From Mycteria americana (taxonomy: Eukaryota > Chordata > Aves > Ciconiiformes > Ciconiidae): a stretch of DNA of 64,000 nt. Shown here in pieces: positions 3,001 through 63,121 of the stretch. A model generated the notes under the pieces. The model had not been told where the DNA came from, ran no database searches, and worked only from the letters and a program-made list of their open reading frames with translations. The translations under genes and the position numbers were made by a program. Position 1 is the first letter of the stretch. Every line of letters starts with the position of its first letter. The stretch is taken from positions 220,489,887 to 220,553,886 of the forward strand of contig NC_134365.1 of NCBI RefSeq assembly GCF_035582795.1, read 5' to 3'.

Positions 3001-5400
3001 TTTTATCTTCACCCTCGGGAAGGCTTAAAAGCAAGTTAAAGGACAATATTCCCTGCAGGTGTGTCTGTTAAAAGGGGACCCAGATCTAACTTCCACCACC
3101 TGTGAGCATCAAAGTGCCTCTAAGCAAACAACAGGGTGAATGAGCCATCTGCTACCGGCACCTTGACCTCAACCTACGACACCGTTTGCAACCGTGAGTT
3201 ACTGTAACCCACGCATTAAAAAAAAAAAAAAAAAAAAAAAACCAATAAAACCCTAAATATACTTATTTCGGCATTGAGCGGTGTGAAACACTACGGCAAT
3301 TTTAATGCAGTTACTTGAGATCAAATATGCATGGCAGTTTATGGATAGAAGTGCAACAAATAGTCCCTGGCCCTTGCAGCTGGTTCAGTATCTCATTATA
3401 ATCTTCCTGGTTCATCAAAGCAATGTGTTGCCTTGCAAAAACTAAACCCTTTATCATTAATTCCGAGCCAGCAGTTTCTGAATCTACAACCCGACACCAA
3501 ATAAATTGATCGAACCAGAACTCATTTTCTTTGCGCTGCTCATTGTCGACGCACAAGACAAACATCAGTCATGCTTCGCCTTCAAGTACGGGATTCATCG
3601 CAGGGAAGAGCGTAACGTGCAGAACATGCTTATTTAATAGAAGAAGTACAGCTTGACAGAGACACCCACTCTAAAATTAACTCTGCCTCAAAGCAGAGCT
3701 TATATTTGCCACTGAAGAAGCACCTCCTAAATCACAGAGAAATATTCTGCAGCTAAATATGGCTGGCATATTGGTGAAGATGCTTCAAGTCTTGACGGAG
3801 GAAAATAAATATGTTAAAACAGCAGGCTTTGAGGATTCAGGATGCATCACTGCTCAGGTGGATAAAGGCTGTATAATGTATTAATGGACCACTTTCCGTA
3901 GCAATCTGATGACTGGTGAACATAGACATGCCAGACAAAATGCAAGGCAGGAAATCCACTTACTTCAGCTTTTCCCCAGCCACACCTGCCAAGTGCAAGC
4001 TAGCAATTTATAAGAAGGAAAGAAGGTAGAAGGCATTTATCGTGAATCACTGTGTGATCCAAACCCAAAAAAGCTCTTTAAGAATAAGCACCGGTCTAAC
4101 TTTTGCTCGCTAATAAGCAACAGTCTAAATTTCTTGGCAGCTGGGAGCATCCCGAGGAGAATACAGCATCCGAACGGCACCATCAGGTTTAATGTTCTTC
4201 ATACACGGCATAACTTTCTAACAGAGAAAAACCTGTACGGGCTTACTGAGCAAGCACTCGTTTTCCTTCATACAGGGACAAAGAGCTAGCAAAAAGAATC
4301 ATAATTCCATTTTTTTTAATTTCACATGCAGCGTGGTCATGACTATTCCGATCATCTAGCCGTAATCCCTTTCCAGCCCCAAAATAACCCTTAAGTCAAC
4401 ACGATTACAAGTAATAACAGTGGCTGTACAGACCCACCCCTGAAAACCCAAAGCATGGCGAGTTTGACAAAGCCAGGTTTTTTCTGGCTGAAGAGTCCCC
4501 ATTTCCATCTCGCCAGGGGTGAAATTTCACAGCTTCAACATCAGGAATTGCTACAACAGACCTTTTCCAGAGGAAGGCTCACATTTCGACTGCAACTCCT
4601 CAACGCCCAGTTTTCTAGGCGGTGAATATACAGGACTTGGGAGAGAGCTTCAATAAAACAGCAATAAGATTATTTTTTTCCCTCTTTTTTTCCTGAATTA
4701 TTCCTTTTTCCAAGCAATTTCTTTGCCAAGCATCAAGACAAAATAATACCCTCTACGTTCACCGTATTTCACCCTCTCTGCTCAGTGCTGGCAAGAAATT
4801 TGGGGTCCTTAACAGAGGGCTTTGCTCCGGGGGGGGATATCCCCAAGAGCCATCCAGGACATCCCTATTGCATCCTCAGAGGGTGCCAGGAGAGCTTGGG
4901 TGCTCCTCCAGCTGGGCAAGCAGCAATAAATCGCTCTTGGGATTTTGCTGCCTCAGGATTTTAGGCGCCGGACAACCCGGGTGTAAAGCCCTGGGGCCGC
5001 GGGACACTGCAGATGCCATTATTTTGAGAGCGGTGTATAAAAATGAAGCATTACCTGTAAAACAAGTATGGCCTAAAGGAGAAAAAGGGGTGGCCAGATC
5101 CACGCCCTGGCAACTTGGGGGGGTGGGGGGTGTCTTGGGGACCCGAGGGGGTACCCCGGGACCTCTCCCCAGGTGGGTGCCCACCCATGACCCTCACTAC
5201 ATGGTAGCACCTCCTCACCTCCCAACTTTGCCTGGGATCCTCCCGGCCAGGTAAGCCACCATGGGCGGGGGGGGGGGGGGGCACACACTGTTTTGGGGGG
5301 CACGGAGGGCAAAGAAACATCTTTTGGGTAAGGAAGCACCTTTGGGGGAAAGAAAGACCTTTTTGGACAACAGAGCACCTTTTGGGGGTCAGACCCGGCG
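1..5400. other. Gene-poor stretch; possible intron
   Basis: I see no convincing exon here. The open frames are short and carry no recognised domain or splice framing. The stretch holds a G16 run (919-934), two A-rich runs near 1483-1550, a poly(A) run near 3219-3241 that may be the tail of an old retroposed copy, and further G runs from 4830 on. If the CpG island at 5.5-5.9 kb is a minus-strand first exon, this stretch would be the start of its first intron. That is inference only. Confidence 0.4.
5264..5281. repeat. Poly(dG) run
   Basis: A long uninterrupted G run sits just outside the CpG island. Others lie at about 5484-5508. Such runs can fold into G-quadruplexes and are often miscounted by sequencing, so their exact length is doubtful. 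Confidence 0.7.
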
Positions 5401-5555
5401 TATCTGTCACACACCCAACACCCCGCCCCGGCTCAGCATCATCCCCCCCCACCCCCCCTGGGAACCCTGCACCCCCCTCGCCGGGGGGGGGGGGGGCGGG
5501 GGGGGGATGCAAAAGGCCACCCCTTTCTCCCAGTCCAACCAGTCCAACCCTTTAC

Positions 5556-5815
5556 CTGCTGCCGCTGGGAGATCCTCCAGGTCGCCGAGCCCCGAGGGAG
5601 GGGGATCCCTGCCCCGCCGAGCGATGCTCCCCCCGGCAGCGAGGCCGGCGGGGGAGCCGTCCCCTGGCAGAGGGTGGGATGGGGACAGCGAAGGGCCGGG
5701 AGGGAGGTGGCACCACCGCGTCCCCGTCCCCGTCCCCGCAGCCCGGTGCGACTCGGCTCGGCTCCGCCGCCCGCTCCCGGGAGCGGGGCGGGGGCTGGGG
5801 CGGGCGGCTCCGCCC
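5556..5815 (-). other. Candidate non-coding first exon
   Basis: Reading the minus strand, GC-rich sequence from about 5815 down to 5556 ends in CAGCAG followed by GTAAAG, close to the ideal splice donor. The upstream end is a guess, set at the GC boxes and the polypyrimidine face of the homopurine tract. No start codon with a recognisable protein is seen, so it would be 5' UTR. It may belong to GDPD5 by synteny. It may also be an unrelated non-coding transcript or chance. Confidence 0.3.
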
Positions 5816-5835
5816 CGGACAGCGGCAGCGGCAGG

Positions 5836-5877
5836 AGGAGGAAGAAGAGGAGGAGGAGGAAGAGGAGGAGGAGGAGG
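5836..5877 (+). repeat. Homopurine GGA-type tract
   Basis: About 42 bases of uninterrupted purines (GGAGGA/GGAAGA units) lie at the edge of the CpG island. Such tracts can form triplex H-DNA and are common close to bird and mammal promoters. In one frame it encodes a run of glutamates, which I take as chance. Confidence 0.8.
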
Positions 5878-6167
5878 CAGGCTACACCCAAAGGCTTGTA
5901 GCCCCTCTTTTTGGGGTGTCCCTGCGGGGATGCGCCCGGCTGCGAGCAAGCCCCTCCGCGGTGGGGTGTCCCGAGGGTCGGGGGGTCCCCTGCCAAGGGA
6001 AATGTTGGAGCCATCCCTGCCAAGGGAAGAGCCTTGCCCCCTCCATGGTGCTGCCCCAGACCTCGACCCTGGGAGTTCCGGGGGGCTGGGAAAGCCGTGG
6101 GGTGCTTGGCACTATACCAGGGGGGTTGGAAACGCTGAGCCCCAAAAGGGCAGTGAACGCCCGGCTT

Positions 6168-6636
6168 CACAGAATCACAGAATCACAGAATCGTAGAGGT
6201 TGGAAAAGACCTTTAAGATCATCAAGTCCAACTGTAAACCTAACACTGCCAAGCCCACCACTACACCATGTCCCTAAGCACCTCATCCAAACGTCCTTTA
6301 AATACCTCCAGGGATGGCGACTCCACCACTGCCCTGGGCAGTCTGTTCCAATGCTGGACAACCCTTTCGGTGAAGAAAAATTTCCTAATATCCAGTCTAA
6401 ACCTCCCCTGGCGCAACTTGAGGCCGTTTCCTCTTGTCCTACCACTTGTTACCTGGGAGAAGAGACCGACCCCACCTCTCTACCCCCTCCTTTCAGGTAG
6501 CTGTAGAGAGCGATGAGGTCTCCCCTCAGCCTCCGCTTCTCCAGGCTGAACAACCCCAGGTCCCTCAGCCGCTCCCCATCAGCCTTGTGCTCCAGACCCT
6601 TCACCAGCTTCGTTGCTCTTCTTTGGACATGCTTCA
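6168..6636 (-). mobile_element. CR1 LINE 3' fragment
   Basis: The + strand begins with three copies of the ATCACAGA tail unit. It then runs through the CR1 3' UTR and the end of the reverse transcriptase frame, in reverse orientation. It is 5'-truncated, as is usual for CR1, and lacks the upstream endonuclease and most of the polymerase. It is by eye nearly the same as the copy at 38.9-39.4 kb. The outer end fades into a short repeat of CATCACACAT-type sequence. Short minus-strand frames inside are remnants of the CR1 polymerase, not host genes. Confidence 0.95.
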
Positions 6637-7775
6637 TCACACATCTTCATCACACATCACCTCCGTCATCCTCCTCTGAACCAGGATGTCTGGGAATTGT
6701 CCACCCCGGGGAGCAACATGTACCCACACACACAGGGTGTAGCTAAAATAGAAAGCTAACCTGGAAAATCTCTGCAAGTTAGGGCAAATATATGGCCCTA
6801 TATGCCCCGGCCTGTTGTTAACTGGGCACCAGTAAATCCCCACTTGGCAGCAGGGAGCATAGTAGTCATGAGGGAAAATACATCATTCATATTTTTATTT
6901 TTTGGGTATTTATATCGAAGGCAATCATGTCTCAAAGCCTGCTAGGAGGGATGTTTTGCGCAGCGGGGTGTTCCCACTTGGGTGGGTGGAGGAGGATGAA
7001 AAGGGCCAGGTACAGATTTGGGCTTTGCAGACTCCCGATTTCTCCTGCTCCTGTAAATGTGCCCTTTCCAACCCACCCATCATTTCTTTTTCCATCCACT
7101 TTCATCACCTGCACTTGGTCTTACATTAGCTCCTGATCTCCCAAGCGTGTAGGTGCACCATGGACGGGTCCCCTGGACCTGATCTACACGCTATGGGCAT
7201 TCTGGCACAGGGTCCTCAAGTTGTAGCGGTTTGGGGAAAGGATGAGTGTTTTGATGTGTCTACGCCATGCTCAGGACTTGTCTTCTGCACGCTGCAACAG
7301 CGCGGGTGAACCAGGGTGAGAAGGATGTCCAGGGCTGCCCAGCACTGTGGACAAAACTGAACTGTATCCTTGGTGTGAATTTTTCGCACTTCTTGAAGCA
7401 AGGTGGCAAAATACTCACCTGAGAGGAACGGATCCCTTTCTTTCTGCAACTTGGCCGTTTTCCACCGTTTTGGCCCGTGCTCGGAGCCAGGCCTGGAGGA
7501 GTGCATGGTCCAAACAGTGCAAAAGGAGGGGCTGTGCTGTCAAAATAGCAAGCAAGTGCGAGACAGATGCCAGGCTCATTTTTATGGAGACAGACGAAGC
7601 CAATAGCTCGCTGGCAACTGTCTCTCTTTTCCTAAGAGGCGTAGAAATAACCCAAGAAGCTGCACCCACCAGCAGGGAAACCTCGCCTGCAGGAAAAGAC
7701 TGGAGGCGAAAAATCAGAATATAAAGACTGATCCAAAGTGACGATCCCCAGCCCCAGAAGAAGAGACGCGGGGTT

Positions 7776-25870: not shown

Positions 25871-27985
25871 ATAGGTATGGCAGAGACATGCCCCATCTCC
25901 TGGGACACTGGCTGGTGTGCTTTTCATTCACCAGTTACGAAAAACATACCAGCTCGCCCTTTTTTTTTTTCCCCTCCACCCTGTGCAGACACAGATTGAA
26001 TGTCAGTGGAAAATAATTCTTTTAATGAGTGTGCTGGGATAGATCAGCTGACTGGGTTTGCTTCAGTAAATCTCGTGGTCACACAGCCCTAAATGTGCAG
26101 CAGTGTCTGTCTAAGCCTTTCCGTTTATAGGACAGAGGTGGGAGCCAAGAGGATGGAAATAAAGTGTTTGCAAGGAAAAGGCCATAGGGTTTAGAGGTGG
26201 AACAAGACTCCCCAGGGGAAATGGGCTGCGGCTGCAGAGAGGTTTGCAGGGTGGGTAGCAAGCACATATCCAAACATGAAAGGGAGCTGGTTGAACATCC
26301 CTACATGCATCTAATAAGTCTTCTGCACAGAGGTCAGGGGAAGGGCTGTGCTGTGCAATGAGCTCTGGGCACCAGGAGAAAAGCACTGGGGTTCCTTCGG
26401 GAAGGCAAAGCCCCAGCAGGTCTGGGACCTGCCTTCCAGGTTGGGTTGGGGATGCGATGTTGGAGTGGTTACAGGAGGGGATGCTGGAAGCGTGAAACCA
26501 CCTCCCTGTCTCCTTGATGCAGCCTGTCTCATCTCTTCGACCCCACGTCTCACCACCCCATCGCACAGAAGCAGAAATCCAGCTCCGGAATAAATCACAG
26601 CTGTCTCCGAGGCAGGGTGCAGTGTTGGCTTTCCCTGGGCGAGCTGCCACGCCATGATAAAGCCGATCCTCCCTCGAAGGTGAGACTCGGAGCTCTTGCT
26701 CCTTGGGAAGCCGGCCTGTTGATGAACTGTGTCAGTGAATAACATATGCCTTTAATTCCCCCTTCATTCAGCAGATCCCTGTGGGAAGCATCATGTCCTT
26801 AAGAAAGGCAAGTGTGAGGCACCCAGAGATGTGTGCATAGGCACTCAGATGCCTAGTAAATCACCACAGACAGGCTGTAATAATCATGACAGGCTCTAAT
26901 TTCTCTGTCCTGGATATATATAGGGTAAAACTTATTGCTTCAGTTGATTATTCCAATGCAAGGGGCTGTTAGAGCAGGTCTGAGTTACTCTGCAGGGATT
27001 TTCCTCACCGCTAGCAATTGCAAAGTCAGGAGAGGAGGGGATCTGAGCAGGAACTGCTCCTGATGTTTTGTTTAAAATGTCCATTCCCTGAGCATGAAAT
27101 GTTTCATGTCAGATCTGTAGGGGTTTTTCAGGTCGATCGGCAGGTTTTGCTGGCATTTGCACCAACACCACTGAGGCTGTCAGCTCCTATCAGGCACTGC
27201 ACGGCTCAGGGCTCACTAGCGATTGAGAAAATGTTTGGTGTCCATCCAGTTCAGATCGAACTAATTACAGAAAATAAAACACTTCCCTACAAGCCAAAAC
27301 CCCCCTTTCTGGTTGGCGTTTGATGTGAGGCTGCAGTGCTGGATCAGACCTGAGTGGGAGACCATAAGCGTATCACTGCAACCCCCCTCTGATGGCTCCA
27401 GCCTTTTTTTTTTCCGGTTCCTAGTGCCTTGTAGGAAGCCAGCCCTTCCCATCCCCTGCTAAAGGTATTGCTTGCTGCTTGGCTTGGGCTGTGCACGCCG
27501 GCACGTCCCTCAAGGACACATGGATGTGCCCCAGAAGCAGGAGACCTGGCACCTCACGGCATAGCGACCAACAGCTCCAGCAAGGGAGGGCAGCACGTCC
27601 CTCTTCTCAATATAGCCAGCAATTTTGAAGCACATTGGGATACCCAGAAGATGCCTGGAGCTTGATTTTTCCACCCAAAAGGATTGACAATCCAGAATAG
27701 GGAAAAAACAGTGCACAGCAGATACAACCAACGCCATCATCCTGACACCAGGGCTTAAATTGCACATACCCTGAGCCACCCGTGAGGTGGCACATGGTGG
27801 GATGTGGCCTTTTCTTCTCTTTGCATCATTCAGAAATGCTCTGAGCTCCACGTTGGCTCCAACACTGGGTGTTAAAGGGTTTCTGTGACTGCAGGATTGG
27901 CCCTCCAGCTCCCGAGGGGCTGCCGCCGGCTCTACAGGGGGTTCGTTCCTCCAGCCAAGCTTATAGAAAAGGGCTGCAAGGTGGG
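25871..27985. other. Unannotated intergenic DNA
   Basis: No gene is recognised. Minus-strand frames of 144 and 179 codons near 26.1-26.7 kb overlap one another and look like chance. Confidence 0.5.
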
Positions 27986-29145
27986 AAGAGAGACCATTGG
28001 AAAGAGATGGATTTAAAAATAGTAGAGACAGAGGAGATGGGCTGGATGAGATTCAGTGGCTAACAGAGAGATGGGAGCACAGCGATCAAATCAGCGTGCT
28101 GCAGGATTAAGTTAGACCCCGTTCCTCCATGGGGGGTGAGACACCAGCCCTGGGCAGGGCTTTCCCCTGCAGAGACTCCCCCCCGCCCGTGGCCCTGCTG
28201 CCTCTGCCCCGCGGGTTCCCGGCCGAGCAGCGTCCAAGCACGGCTCCCACCCAGCTCCGCCATGTCCCCCTTCTGCGGAGCACCGCGTCCCCCCTCAACC
28301 CACCCGACGTCCCTCTCCGCAGAGCTCGGGGCTGCCAGGGCCCCAAGTCTTGTCCCCCGGGGAAGCTCTCCCCTGGCTGCCGGGAGCCTGGAGACCTGCG
28401 GCTGCCCTGGGCCGGGGGAAACGCACTCATCCTGCCCCACGTCCCGCGTTACGGTCTCGCTGCTCCCCCCGCCGCCCAGCTCCTGCACCGCGCCTCCGGG
28501 TGCGCGGCCCGGCCGTCTCCAGCCTTCCCCCTCCACAGCCCCCGCCGCCGCGGGCTTGGGACCTCGGCACCAAGGAGGACGAGCCGGGCACTTGGCCTCC
28601 ACCGCGCAACCCCCGCCTGCCCCGCGGCTGGTGGCGGCACGGGGCTCCCGTGGCCGCGTTGCCTGCAGGCCCCAGCCTGCACCAGGGCGGGGGTAAAGAC
28701 AGACCTCCCGGCCCCCGCGTGCAGGGCACAGGCGTCTCTCCTCCCACTCGCCCTGGGAACCGCGCTCCTCCCGCTCAGTCCTCTCCGCTGCACTGGGAGC
28801 AGACCAAAGAGCCGGCCGGGGCCCGGCAGCAGACGGGGCCCGGCCTTCCCGCTGCAGGAACCGGAGCTCTGGGGCTCCGCTTGCAGCCGTTGTTTCTTGG
28901 CCCTGGCATCCTTGGGCAGAGGGGCTGATGTTGCTCCCACCCGTGGCGTTGTGCCTCGGCTCCCGGCCAAGGGCTGCCTGCAGACTCCTGAGCAGCTCCT
29001 GCGCTCTGACCCCACTGTGTCACCCTCTCTGCTGGGCGAGTCACCAGGGACCTGCCACGAAGCCTCTGTGGTTTTGATAATGGTCAAGGACGGAGGAGAT
29101 AAGTTACGTTCTCCTTCAAGGCCAGCTTGGATGGGGCTTTGAACA
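27986..29145 (+). repeat. Inverted repeat, left arm (about 1.16 kb)
   Basis: This segment is repeated in reverse complement at 31309-32467. By eye only about five differences exist in roughly 1,157 bases: three single-base changes in the GC-rich core, plus one change and one G-run length change near 28127-28135. Identity is thus about 99.6%. The arm is GC- and CpG-rich in the middle, less so at the ends. Its right end lies inside a CR1 3' piece that continues unbroken past the arm to about 29262. Long overlapping frames on both strands (up to 337 codons) are expected in such GC-rich DNA and match no family I know. Confidence 0.95.
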
Positions 29146-29262
29146 ACCTGATCTAGTGGAAGGTGTCCCTGCCCATGGCGGGGGGGGGTTGGCAGTAGAT
29201 GATCTTTAAGGTCCCTTCCAACCCAAACCATTCCGTGACTCTATGATTCTATGATTTTATAT
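29085..29262 (+). mobile_element. CR1 3' end crossing the arm boundary
   Basis: The segment has the usual CR1 3' order: CAAGGCCAGCTTGGATGGGG, GTGTCCCTGCCCATGG, TAGATGATCTTTAAGG, then ATTCTATGATTTTAT-type tail units. It runs straight across the end of the left arm at 29145. The right arm holds only the first part, so the arm copy was cut inside this element. Confidence 0.9.
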
Positions 29263-31308
29263 GAGAGAGCTGCTCTAAGTCCCTCCTGTCCTACGCTCTT
29301 CCTGCAAGGTTCTCCTGCAGATCCCAGCTGCTCCCTGCCTCTCTTTCCCTCCCTGCATGCGAAAGAGATGAACGGTTCAGCGACTCCTCATGGCAATTGG
29401 GATTTGGGCAGCCTGGGGAACCCTCTTCAAGAGAAGCGGATCCTGCAGGTGCTTCAGACAGAAGGAGAAGGACTCCCTCTCTCTGCCTTCTAGCAGAACA
29501 GCAGCATCGACCAAAGCTTTTAAAATGAAACCTGAAAAGACATACGGAAGCTCCCGGCGTGCTGCATGCTGGTCGGGCACCCATTCGATGCTGCACAATT
29601 TGGGGTCCTCATCATCTGAAGGGGCATGGGATTATCTATACTATCATTGCCTTCTTTCTAGTGTTAACTCCTATAAATCACATTTTAAATAATACTTTAC
29701 GGAGTCGGAGTGTCTTTCTTACCAGGATGAACCAGGAGAGAAGATGAATGCAGAGCCCTAGGGCATCACTCACATCTGTGCTCCCCCCCCTGCTAGATGC
29801 TGGGCCAAAGTAATCCCAATTCATGGAAATCCACCCCATTACCCCCAAAAATAAACTGATATTATAGCCAGGGGTATTGCAGCCAGGAGGATTACCCCTG
29901 GCTCACAGCTCAAGCTGGGCTCTGAGGGTGCCCCAGATACGTCACAGCGCACAATTTGCAGCAGAATGGGGAAAACATCCTTTCAAGTTCCCATCAGCTT
30001 GGAGCCAGCACTTGCAGGGACAAGGACTGCAGCCCCCCCTGTTCTCCTGCCCCCCAAACCTGTAGCATCAGAGCAGCATCAGGCCCCAGGGCTGCAGTTG
30101 TCCCCGATAGCGTCACCCTGCCAGAGCGGCTAGAGGCTGGGTGAGTGCCCAGGTTGCTTTAGCCTCCCTCCGGCTGGGGAGTCACAGGTCTGGCTGTCCC
30201 TCCTGGGAAGGCCAGCAGTGTGCGTTGTCCCCAAAATGTCCCCTTTAGCTATGCAACACCCTGCACCAACCGAGCAGCACATCAAGGAGTCACGGGGGAG
30301 TGTCATGGATGCTATGAACAAGCATGGCTGGGAGATTAATCTGCAGCGAGCACAGCAATCCCGCACTGTTAAATGGGAATGGTGTTTCCATGCAGGCAAA
30401 GCCAGGTGCCTGCAAAATCAGTGCCTGTTCCTCTTCCCGCCAGGCTCCTCTCCAATGTCAGCAGAAATATCTGCTGACAACTACATAAATACCACGAGCT
30501 GTTCTTGCCACCAAGAATAATTTACCACCAGGCTGGCTACCCCAGGGATGCTGAGAGCTCTGTGCATCACCAGGAGCCTGCAGGCATTTGCAGAGCCAAT
30601 GCAACGAGCAGTGAGCCGACCCGAGCTTCAGGAATCAGCTAGAAAGGAGAAAGCCAAGGATGTGAGGGCAGAGGATGGGAGAGGATGGTCCCATCAAGAA
30701 GTAAGGAGAAGAAAATGGTCCCTGTGAAATGTGGTGCATGCATCCATCTTTGCTTCATTTTTTTTCTCCCTCCTGGCCCCAGCCAGTCTTGCTACTGCGC
30801 TTGGCTCGGAAATACAGATCCCTTCTGGTGTCACTGGCCCCTGCTGCACCCAGGAACAGCCCTGGGGGCTGCACCAGCCCGTGGTCCCTCTCATCCTGCG
30901 TCCCCCTGCTCAGGAGCTCCGCTGTCACATCGTGCCTCTGTTCTTCCACCCTGCATCAGTACAGGAGAGGCAGAAACATTTCATTCTGCACAGATAAACT
31001 GCTTGTTCCTAATGTCTATATGGACCTTTGGTTACACCAGACAAAAAGACAAGCAGAAGTAAAACAACTTAGTCATAGCCACTTGGTTATGAAGAAAAAT
31101 GTGGTTACAACTAAATCAAGGACAAAAAAAACTAAGCTTCAGGCAGCTCAAGACAAGTTCAGACAAAGCAGGACTGGCAAACCCCATTCCCAAGGTCCTA
31201 AAACCCAGCACAAAGCCTGCAACCTGGCCCTAGCAGTGGCAATGCTGCATTTACTGGGCTATAGCACCCATAATGAAGAAGGAGCCCATGTAAGACCTTC
31301 ACCAGGTC
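29263..31308. other. Spacer between the inverted arms
   Basis: About 2 kb of moderate-GC unique sequence separates the arms. Frames of up to 213 codons exist on the + strand (30729-31370), but the end of that frame runs into the right arm and it shows no family signature. No RNA gene or other repeat is recognised. Confidence 0.6.
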
Positions 31309-32467
31309 TGTTCAAAGCCCCATCCAAGCTGGCCTTGAAGGAGAACGTAACTTATCTCCTCCGTCCTTGACCATTATCAAAACCACAGAGGCTTCGTGGC
31401 AGGTCCCTGGTGACTCGCCCAGCAGAGAGGGTGACACAGTGGGGTCAGAGCGCAGGAGCTGCTCAGGAGTCTGCAGGCAGCCCTTGGCCGGGAGCCGAGG
31501 CACAACGCCACGGGTGGGAGCAACATCAGCCCCTCTGCCCAAGGATGCCAGGGCCAAGAAACAACGGCTGCAAGCGGAGCCCCAGAGCTCCGGTTCCTGC
31601 AGCGGGAAGGCCGGGCCCCGTCTGCTGCCGGGCCCCGGCCGGCTCTTTGGTCTGCTCCCAGTGCAGCGGAGAGGACTGAGCGGGAGGAGCGCGGTTCCCA
31701 GGGCGAGTGGGAGGAGAGACGCCTGTGCCCTGCACGCGGGGGCCGGGAGGTCTGTCTTTACCCCCGCCCTGGTGCAGGCTGGGGCCTGCAGGCAACGCGG
31801 CCACGGGAGCCCCGTGCCGCCACCAGCCGCGGGGCAGGCGGGGGTTGCGCGGTGGAGGCCAAGTGCCCGGCTCGTCCTCCTTGGTGCCGAGGTCCCAAGC
31901 CCGCGGCGGCGGGGGCTGTGGAGGGGGAAGGCTGGAGACGGCCGGGCCGCGCACCCGGAGGCGCGGTGCAGGAGCTGGGCGGCGGGGGGAGCAGCGAGAC
32001 CGTAACGCGGGACGTGGGGCAGGATGAGTGCGTTTCCCCCGGCCCAGGGCAGCCGCAGGTCTCCAGGCTCCCGGCAGCCAGGGGAGAGCTTCCCCGGGGG
32101 ACAAGACTTAGGGCCCTGGCAGCCCCGAGCTCTGCGGAGAGGGACGTCGGGTGGGTTGAGGGGGGACGCGGTGCTCGGCAGAAGGGGGACGTGGCGGAGC
32201 TGGGTGGGAGCCGTGCTTGGACGCTGCTCGGCCGGGAACCCGCGGGGCAGAGGCAGCAGGGCCACGGGCGGGGGGGAGTCTCTGCAGGGGAAAGCCCTGC
32301 CCAGGGCTGGTGTCTCACCCCCATGTAGGAACGGGGTCTAACTTAATCCTGCAGCACGCTGATTTGATCGCTGTGCTCCCATCTCTCTGTTAGCCACTGA
32401 ATCTCATCCAGCCCATCTCCTCTGTCTCTACTATTTTTAAATCCATCTCTTTCCAATGGTCTCTCTT
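31309..32467 (-). repeat. Inverted repeat, right arm (about 1.16 kb)
   Basis: This is the reverse complement of 27986-29145. The outer end stops at 32467, where both flanks become unrelated. The inner end stops at 31309 inside CR1-like sequence (TTCAAAGCCCCATCCAAGCT), without the rest of the CR1 tail. The missing tail suggests that this arm is the derived copy and the left one the source. Three of the differences change the residues of the shared long frame, so there is no sign of selection on that frame. Confidence 0.95.
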
Positions 32468-34529
32468 GCTTTGGTGTAGCCTTTTCCATACGCTTCGCTG
32501 ACACTTACAGCCCGGAAAGTCCTCCTAAATACAGTTGTTCTCCCAAGGGTAGGCATCAGCTCCACCAGGGATCAGAGGGAGCTCAGAGACAGCAGCACAG
32601 GGATTGCTGTTTCTTGTGGTTTTCTGGCACTTTTTGAAGCATGGGAAGCTGTCAGCCGTGACCACACGCAGCCCAAAGCGTATTCCCAGTGCAGGATACG
32701 GGGCACGGGACTGGGGCTAGGACAGACAAGAGAAAACCTGGCAGCAGTCAAGGCTGGGGGAGGTTTTCGCCTTGATCTCACCCTCGAGGACAGTGATCGT
32801 GCCAGCCCAGGGAAGCAGAGGTGACATCAAGGCACACAATTTTCTGTTTATCTGAAGCAAGACAGCTGAGGTTCTCCAGCTAATGGGAAAACGCAGGTGA
32901 TGAGGTCCTACAGGACCTGCTGGAGAACACGGTGCTGTAATGTCTAGTGCTTCTCTGAAACCTCATGTCCATGAGGATTTATTTGCACTATCATCAGCCC
33001 TGTGATGCCCAAGCTGGTTCCTGCAGGGCTTTTGGGGTGTCTCCCCACCCTGCTGCCCAAGTGACCCACCTCCCACTTCATAGCCCCTTCCACGCGGTGA
33101 CCGCAGACCTTCCTGCCAACGCTGCGGCTCAGCCTGCCATCAGGAAAGCTTGAGGCAGCGGTGCATCGCTGGATTCAAAGGTACGTGGTGACTCAGTGGC
33201 AGAGCCCAGAGCGGATTCATCATGCATCCCACATTTTATGAACTTGCCTTCAGCAGATCCAATTATTCTATTAGCTGGAATTAGGGAGAAAATCATTGTT
33301 AAATAGTTAACTCATCAAGACAGGCGCTGTCACAGGGACTGAAGATATTTCTGAATTTGGGGTGTGTTTGAAAAATGAAGACAAAAATGGGGGAAAACCA
33401 ACTAAGCAGTTTGTTTTGATGTCTTTAATTTGTTTTCATTTTCTTTGTCTGAAAATGATATTTGAGGCTACATTTAGCCCTTTTCTACTTCAGAAGAATA
33501 GTGAAACAAAAAAAAACCCCAAAATGTTTCCTTCAAATTAAGTGCTGTGGATTTCCCTTTTGGCCAGAAAATTGCCCCTTCTGACTTTATTTGTCCCAAA
33601 TGAACAACGAATTTGATCTCCTGGAGTGACCCTTGGGACAAAAACTCCACTCCTCCTAAAGCTGTGCCTGTAACGTTGGAGAAGGTTTGTGCAGCTCCTC
33701 CACCATCAACAGAGAGCCATTTCTAGCAGGTAATTCTTCCCACCGTGGGCACGCAGGATAAATAACCAACCCCAGCAATGAAAGGAGATTTGATGAAACA
33801 TCTAACATTGCATTTTGAAAGCCACATGAGCTGTGCAGGGTCATGATGTCCTACAGATACTTCCACCACCTCTGAGATCACTAAAACTTACTGTGCTGGG
33901 GTGTCTCTCTGGTTTGCAGAGGAGGGATGAGAAACCAGCTTCATCCATACCCAGCATCCAATACCTGCCAGCCTCCAGCTGCTCACCACTCAGCAGACTT
34001 TTGCTCCAGACCAGTGAGTAGCCCCCAGCAAGCCCCACATGGGTTCAGCTTTCTGCATGCCCAGAGATGGGGCTGACCCTATCCCAGGGGACCCGATTTT
34101 GTGACCTCAGTGACCACATCAGTGACATCCGAGGCACGTGGGTGCTGCACACATCAGTTTGCCTTTGTTTTTATGAGGTTGGGCTAAGAGCTTTCCACCA
34201 ACATGGCAAGAGTAGGCTGGAAACATGAGCCACCAGCTCTCAGGCACTGCTCTTTTAGCCTATTCTTGCTGCTGCACCCACATGTTTACCTCTCGCTCCA
34301 CCTGAGATCCAAATTTGCCTGTTTGGAAGATACATCCCAATTACAACTCAATTCTCTTTGGTGACCACTGAATGAATCAAACACAGCGAGACCTTCCCAG
34401 CACCAAGACCAACTCTGGCACCCAAAAGCACTGTCGGCAATTTTTTCCACGGGAAAAAATCCAAATGTTTCCGTCCTGGGTTTCTAAATGCCCTGGACTC
34501 TGCTACCACATCCCAGGGTGACTGTGTGA
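32468..34529. other. Unannotated intergenic DNA
   Basis: I see no gene or named repeat. The part from 33.2 to 33.6 kb is AT-rich. Confidence 0.5.
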
Positions 34530-34702
34530 TCCCTGGAAGTATTTAAAAGTATCCCTGGAAGTATTTAACAGACGTTTGGATGAGGTGCTTAGGGACATGG
34601 TGTAGTGGTGGGCTTGGCAGTGTTAGGTTTGTGGTTGGACTCGATGATCTTAAAGGTCTTTTCCAACCTATACAATTCTGTGATTCTGTGATTCTGTGAT
34701 GG
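34530..34702 (+). mobile_element. CR1 LINE 3' end fragment
   Basis: The segment reads through GACGTTTGGATGAGGTGCTT and GTTGGACTCGATGATCTTAA to three TGTGATTC tail units, the 3' end of the same CR1 type as at 6 kb and 39 kb but in forward orientation. Its first part holds a small internal duplication of ATCCCTGGAAGTATTTAA. It is only about 170 bases long, so strongly 5'-truncated. Confidence 0.93.
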
Positions 34703-38934: not shown

Positions 38935-39422
38935 ACAGAATCAGAATCACAGAATCACAGAATCGTATAGGTTGGAAAAGACCTTTAAGATCATCGAGTC
39001 CAACCCTAAACCTAACACTGCCAAGCCCACCACTACACCATGTCCCTGAGCACCTCATCCAAACGTCCTTTAAATACCTCCAGGGATGGCGACTCCACCA
39101 CTTCCCTGGGCAGCCTGTTCCAGTGCTGGACAACCCTTTCAGTGAAGAAAAATTTCCTAATATCCAGTCTAAACCTCCCCTGGCGCAACTTGAGGCCATT
39201 TCCTCTCGTCCTATCACTTGTTACCTGGGAGAAGAGACCGACCCCACCTCTCTACACCCTCCTTTCAGGCAGCTGTAGAGAGCGATGAGGTCTCCCCTCA
39301 GCCTCCTTTTCTCCAGGCTGAACAACCCCAGGTCCCTCAGCCGCTCCCCATCAGCCTTGTGCTCCAGACCCTTCACCAGCTTCGTTGCCCTTCTCTGGAC
39401 ACGCTCCAGCACCTCAATCCTC
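38935..39422 (-). mobile_element. CR1 LINE 3' fragment
   Basis: The + strand begins with ATCACAGA tail units and runs through antisense CR1 3' UTR into the end of the polymerase frame. The order matches the 6.2 kb copy for about 460 bases with only scattered changes by eye. It is 5'-truncated. Minus-strand frames here (for example 39221-39412) are remnants of the CR1 polymerase C-terminus. The two copies lie in the same orientation, 33 kb apart. Confidence 0.95.
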
Positions 39423-57685: not shown

Positions 57686-57826
57686 CCCTTCTCAGACAAA
57701 TGGCCTCTAAATCACTCAAATTGTGACCCAAGGTCCCCATATCCATGCTGTAGAACACAACACGAAACAGGGCACTTGGACAAGAATATTCCCTTTCAGA
57801 CTCGTCATCTCATCTTCACTGAAGGG
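57686..57826 (-). ncRNA. SNORD15: SNORD15-like copy in RPS3 intron 6, degenerate
   Basis: This is the most diverged of three U15 copies in this gene. It keeps the CCCUUC/GAAGGG end stem, the GATGACGAGTC block and box D (CTGA, 57692-57695). Its box C reads GTGAAGA (57813-57819) instead of GTGATGA. In the rRNA-pairing stretch before box D it has one extra base compared with the other two copies (GAGGCCATTTGT, not GAGGCATTTGT). It may be a failing copy or one with a changed target. It lies in the last intron, upstream of the 3' UTR exon. Confidence 0.75.
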
Positions 57827-58039
57827 CATGCTTAGCTGGTTCGCAGCATGCCTTAAACCATGCCCCCTTCAGCCAGGGCAATACTCTAAATCCAACCCAG
57901 CTGATCACTGCACCTGGTACAATGCAGCAGCTTTTCCTTCCAGTACCCCAGCTACCTGACAGCTTTTTTGGTGACATGACACCTTTTCCGCATGGATCCT
58001 CACCAAAGCTACTTCCCACCGCTCGCAGGCACTTACCCC

Positions 58040-63121
<5,082 letters not shown>

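Follow-up and report, generated by a model that had tools for sequence, protein, structure and literature searches.

Segments that span 1 kb or more, share at least 90% identity and are present as two inverted, non-dispersed copies are classed as inverted segmental duplications. Of long inverted repeats, 61, each of more than 500 bp, were used in a study of human chromosome 21 (PMC6044046, in the part considered here). In human fold-back inverted duplications the unduplicated spacers measure 766 to 70,466 bp, with a median of 3,428 bp, and 13 junctions carry a microhomology of 2–8 bp (PMC3907307, in the sections drawn on here). The arms of primate X palindromes exceed their flanks in GC, according to the portion of PMC8981503 used for comparison.

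The window analysed here is a stretch of 64,000 nucleotides from Mycteria americana (C1:220489887-220553886), located in a contig of 223 Mb (C1) that belongs to an assembly of 1.35 Gb and 279 contigs. Positions without prefix refer to this window. Alignment of the two arms of the inverted repeat at 27986-32467 from end to end gave 1,155 identical columns out of 1,160 (99.6%), above the length and identity that define the class. The differences consist of four substitutions, at left-arm positions 28127, 28263, 28277 and 28344, and one 1-bp indel within a G run at left-arm position 28131, whereas the innermost 801 bp show none. The dimensions given in the earlier note (1,157 bases per arm, about five differences, a 2.2 kb spacer and outer limits at 27986 and 32467) are correct according to this alignment, and the inverted repeat is genuine. 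Its parts are as follows.

27986-29145, plus strand: left arm, 1,160 bp; its inner edge holds an uninterrupted CR1-type repeat and is taken as the ancestral inner edge
31309-32467, minus strand: right arm, the inverted copy, 1,159 bp; the CR1-type repeat is severed at its inner edge
29146-31308, no strand: spacer, 2,163 bp
29115 to about 29250, plus strand: CR1-type repeat, 5'-truncated, which crosses the left arm's inner edge
28051-29000, no strand: CpG island of the left arm, GC 0.72, CpG observed/expected 0.65
31451-32400, no strand: CpG island of the right arm, GC 0.72, CpG observed/expected 0.67
27952-27985, plus strand: flank outside the left arm, imperfectly similar to the one outside the right arm (23 of 34 columns)
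32468-32500, minus strand: flank outside the right arm, paired with 27952-27985

For comparison, inverted pairs of at least 100 bp and no more than 20 kb apart were collected at E values up to 1e-10 from 263 kb of the same chromosome. Ten pairs were found; the one described here has the greatest length, and no other above 300 bp is more than 90% identical. The second longest is 88% identical, its arms lie 14 kb apart and match additional places, and three shorter pairs (146–267 bp) are 93–95% identical. The pairing of the arms is far beyond chance for these 263 kb.

A search of the 1.35-Gb assembly with the inner 1,014 bp of the arm returned two matches and a 59-bp piece of a CR1-type dispersed repeat, and the outer 215 bp returned two matches and none elsewhere; this search passes over very frequent words, and the count of two is its outcome, not an absolute proof. 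The arm sequence thus appears as two copies of high identity, inverted and not dispersed. Among the best 40 of 103 candidates scored, positions 29260-31302 of the spacer were matched over their full length solely at their own place, and they include stretches of old dispersed repeats that are 68–81% identical to the other copies listed. The region had been called unique intergenic DNA, a description that suits the arms and the DNA separating the identified coding parts of the flanking genes; the spacer holds the old repeats just named. Elsewhere in the window, 6167-6640, 34551-34699 and 38942-39412 are copies of one dispersed repeat, mutually 94–96% identical, with more copies in adjacent DNA.

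At 29145 the left arm ends within the dispersed repeat that runs from 29115 to about 29250, which we take to be of CR1 type. Among the best 40 of 1,364 candidates scored, this repeat was found at 38 other places with an identity of 88–95%, starting at the same base in 36 of them, 2 bases later in one and 28 bases earlier in one. Beside the left arm it extends into the spacer, and in the right arm it ends at the arm edge. Because it is intact at one inner edge and cut at the other, the simplest reading is that the ancestral junction is the one beside the left arm and that the other inner junction is new, although the remainder of the repeat may instead have been lost from the right inner edge through a later deletion. 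Crossing-over between the arms could possibly occur at this locus; it would flip the spacer and move the remainder of the CR1-type repeat to the other arm, and therefore the repeat is silent on which outer flank is ancestral. The earlier note, in stating that no transposon ends or target-site copies were evident, overlooked this transposon-derived repeat but was right about the target site: exact direct matches between the flanks reach no more than 4 and 6 bp, and 200 of 1,000 random pairs attain 6 bp or more.

A closer view of the outer junction showed that 23 of 34 columns still match past the arm ends, a weak similarity that the earlier note had also overlooked. Its score of 11 was reached by only one of 14,901 random pairs drawn from the 263 kb; in a smaller control, with 1,500 pairs taken from the window, one reached 10 and none reached 12. 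Past these 34 columns the similarity stops and nothing further was detected, and the genome search gave no other match for either flank. At the inner junction the match resumes as CAGGT after one additional base, and its score of 3, equalled or bettered by 860 of the 14,901 random pairs, is not significant.

The arms have a GC content of 68%, against 50–52% in the flanks and the spacer, and the CpG ratio of the spacer and flanks is 0.25–0.36. The GC is uneven along the arm, so that their earlier description as GC-rich fits positions 28118-28850 (74–76%) but not the outermost 132 bp (45%). The CpG island probably predates the duplication and was carried along with it. A second GC-rich patch (GC 0.68, CpG ratio 0.55) lies at 5315-6214 and overlaps an open frame of 430 aa (5208-6497) without Pfam match.

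The locus is real and represents an ordinary inverted segmental duplication in which a CpG island was copied, and its age is probably recent, in line with one of the two readings offered in the earlier note; two genome copies, near-identity of the arms and a CR1-type repeat cut in one of them all support that reading. If bird DNA changes at about 2e-9 substitutions per site per year and no conversion took place, four substitutions in 1,159 bp would be equivalent to about 0.9 million years, a figure that is an estimate and not a measured date.

As to its origin, a CpG-island segment of about 1.16 kb that existed as a single copy was most likely duplicated once, in inverted orientation and about 2.2 kb away, through a template switch during replication or repair. 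Fold-back or template-switch repair is favoured because the CR1-type repeat cut in one copy and the partly alike outer flanks both fit it, and the two full inverted copies found in 1.35 Gb and the lack of a target-site duplication also agree with it. We infer a route in which a 3' end that had broken or stalled on the far side of the spacer would fold back and prime within the CR1-type repeat at the short match CAGGT; the island would then be copied outwards, and the nascent strand would rejoin the original chromosome at the approximately 34 bp of partly similar sequence. The spacer of 2,163 bp is inside the range of about 0.8–70 kb seen for unduplicated spacers in the human cases, as far as these are covered by the sections of PMC3907307 considered. 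On the other side, the match at the inner junction is not significant, the human duplications are large and come with terminal deletions, translocations or rings, unlike an insertion of 1 kb, and the cut repeat admits the later deletion mentioned above.

The clustering of the differences between the arms also suits another explanation better than a template switch. All five are confined to 218 of the 1,160 bp, for which uniform placement gives a p of about 0.005, rising to about 0.022 when the two adjacent differences count as a single event (four events), in a test that was made post hoc. The arms could then be an old inverted repeat held near-identical by arm-to-arm gene conversion, the outer 34 bp being what is left, unconverted and decayed, of arms that were once longer, and part of the high GC a product of GC-biased conversion. 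Such an origin is unlikely, though it deserves to be weighed before the others. Similarity of the outer flanks would be expected from it, and the GC excess of the arms recalls the palindromes of the primate X chromosome (PMC8981503, in the portion used). However, the outer similarity ends at 34 bp, the 132 bp at the outer end of the arm are identical at just 45% GC, and the other GC-rich patch, of 900 bp from 5315, is not part of a comparable inverted pair. The continuing conversion suggested in the earlier note thus finds a weak indication in the clustering, as a hint of conversion along the remainder of the arm, although a mutation cluster or chance would also fit; judged from the sequence, the arms may have exchanged tracts at least once after the duplication.

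That the repeat would have arisen in assembly, from a fold-back read or by false duplication, is improbable. Near-identical arms are what such an error would produce, and one of the five differences, the length change in a G run, is of a kind common among sequencing errors. A missed-adapter fold-back would show no spacer. Against an artefact stand the four substitutions, the unique 2.2 kb spacer, the differing outer flanks, the repeat cut at one edge only and the absence of any N in the 263 kb.

With respect to the genes around it, the left arm lies about 90 kb upstream of the start-codon exon of GDPD5, which is on the minus strand and ends at C1:220427919; the exons of this gene were located with a human query sequence. 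Consistent with these exon matches, a search for the GDPD family gave a single match (E 0.024), on the minus strand and 155 kb to the left of the window. On the other side, about 17.7 kb from the right arm, the plus-strand open frame 50014-50691 matches the serpin family (residues 50-222, Pfam E 6.3e-40); from gene order we take it to be SERPINH1. The repeat therefore lies between divergent coding genes, GDPD5 and the serpin, unless GDPD5 has a 5' untranslated exon as far upstream as the repeat, which is possible. The gene order and the CR1-type repeats are both in keeping with a bird. Farther right are the exons of RPS3 (58.0-62.2 kb, minus strand) and three SNORD15 genes inside or adjoining it (57687-60180, minus strand), the latter being the sole Rfam matches at gathering score in the whole window. 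A PDB search with one open frame of the RPS3 region gave one match at chance level (E 0.34).

In the arms themselves no Pfam or Rfam family was found at cut-off. Ten open frames in and around the repeat gave a single sub-threshold Pfam match, to PID_2 (E 0.0027; its 18.1 bits fall short of the cut-off of 25.4). It covers about 30948-31178, in the spacer part of an open frame (30705-31370) that continues into the right arm; the similarity is probably due to chance, and about 30892-31264 resembles an old dispersed repeat. None of 117 more open frames from both strands of 27.3-39.3 kb (at least 55 aa on the plus strand and at least 50 aa on the minus, leaving aside the ten already scanned and a few overlapping ones) matched Pfam at E 0.01. 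Outside 27-39 kb the scans covered the plus strand, with no Pfam match for 138 open frames of the first 27.6 kb and the serpin as the sole family, in 4 of 85, at 39-57 kb; short exons would escape these scans everywhere. ARAGORN found no tRNA. The sequence searches gave no sign of a function of its own for the repeat at 27986-32467.

A pair maintained for its function, as mirrored CpG-island promoters or as the source of a hairpin RNA, would agree with the presence of an island in each arm and with the position between divergent genes, but no RNA or protein family is seen in the arms and we hold it to be very improbable. The same low probability applies to a more elaborate version, an invertible regulatory segment in which the mirrored islands would be homogenised by ongoing GC-biased conversion while the 2.2 kb spacer flips in the population. 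Formation of a hairpin or of double-stranded RNA and a regulatory role are possibilities that the arrangement would allow. A mobile element whose ends are long and inverted, or a repeat family of which two members had inserted here in opposing orientations, is the least credible explanation, for which only the inverted arms on either side of the spacer speak: a transposon family is unlikely because the arm sequence was found at two places only (the 59-bp CR1-type piece aside), neither dispersed copies nor a target-site duplication were seen, and no Pfam family reached cut-off in the open frames scanned in and around the repeat.

The locus is a clean bird case of a small inverted duplication: the repeat severed at one edge tells in which direction the copying went, and the outer flanks hint at the way the copy was joined to the chromosome again. 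No new mechanism is indicated, and the site would be useful for studying spacer inversion and conversion between arms. The literature search for GDPD5, SERPINH1 and an inverted repeat in combination found no report joining the three. With the sex-chromosome palindromes subject to gene conversion, as presented in the part of PMC8981503 considered, the locus shares GC-rich arms of more than 99% identity; its arms, in contrast, are of 1.2 kb, lie on the contig that carries GDPD5 and RPS3, contain no genes that could be found and give a weak indication of conversion. It resembles the human fold-back duplications with disomic spacer, in the sections of PMC3907307 compared, in having an inverted copy, an unduplicated spacer of a few kb and a short inverted match at the spacer edge, but here only about 1.16 kb was copied, without terminal deletion and with both outer flanks kept, and the inner match is not significant. 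From long inverted repeats and small inverted segmental duplications, with which it shares two near-identical inverted arms of more than 500 bp, it shows no essential difference, apart from a direction that can be read.
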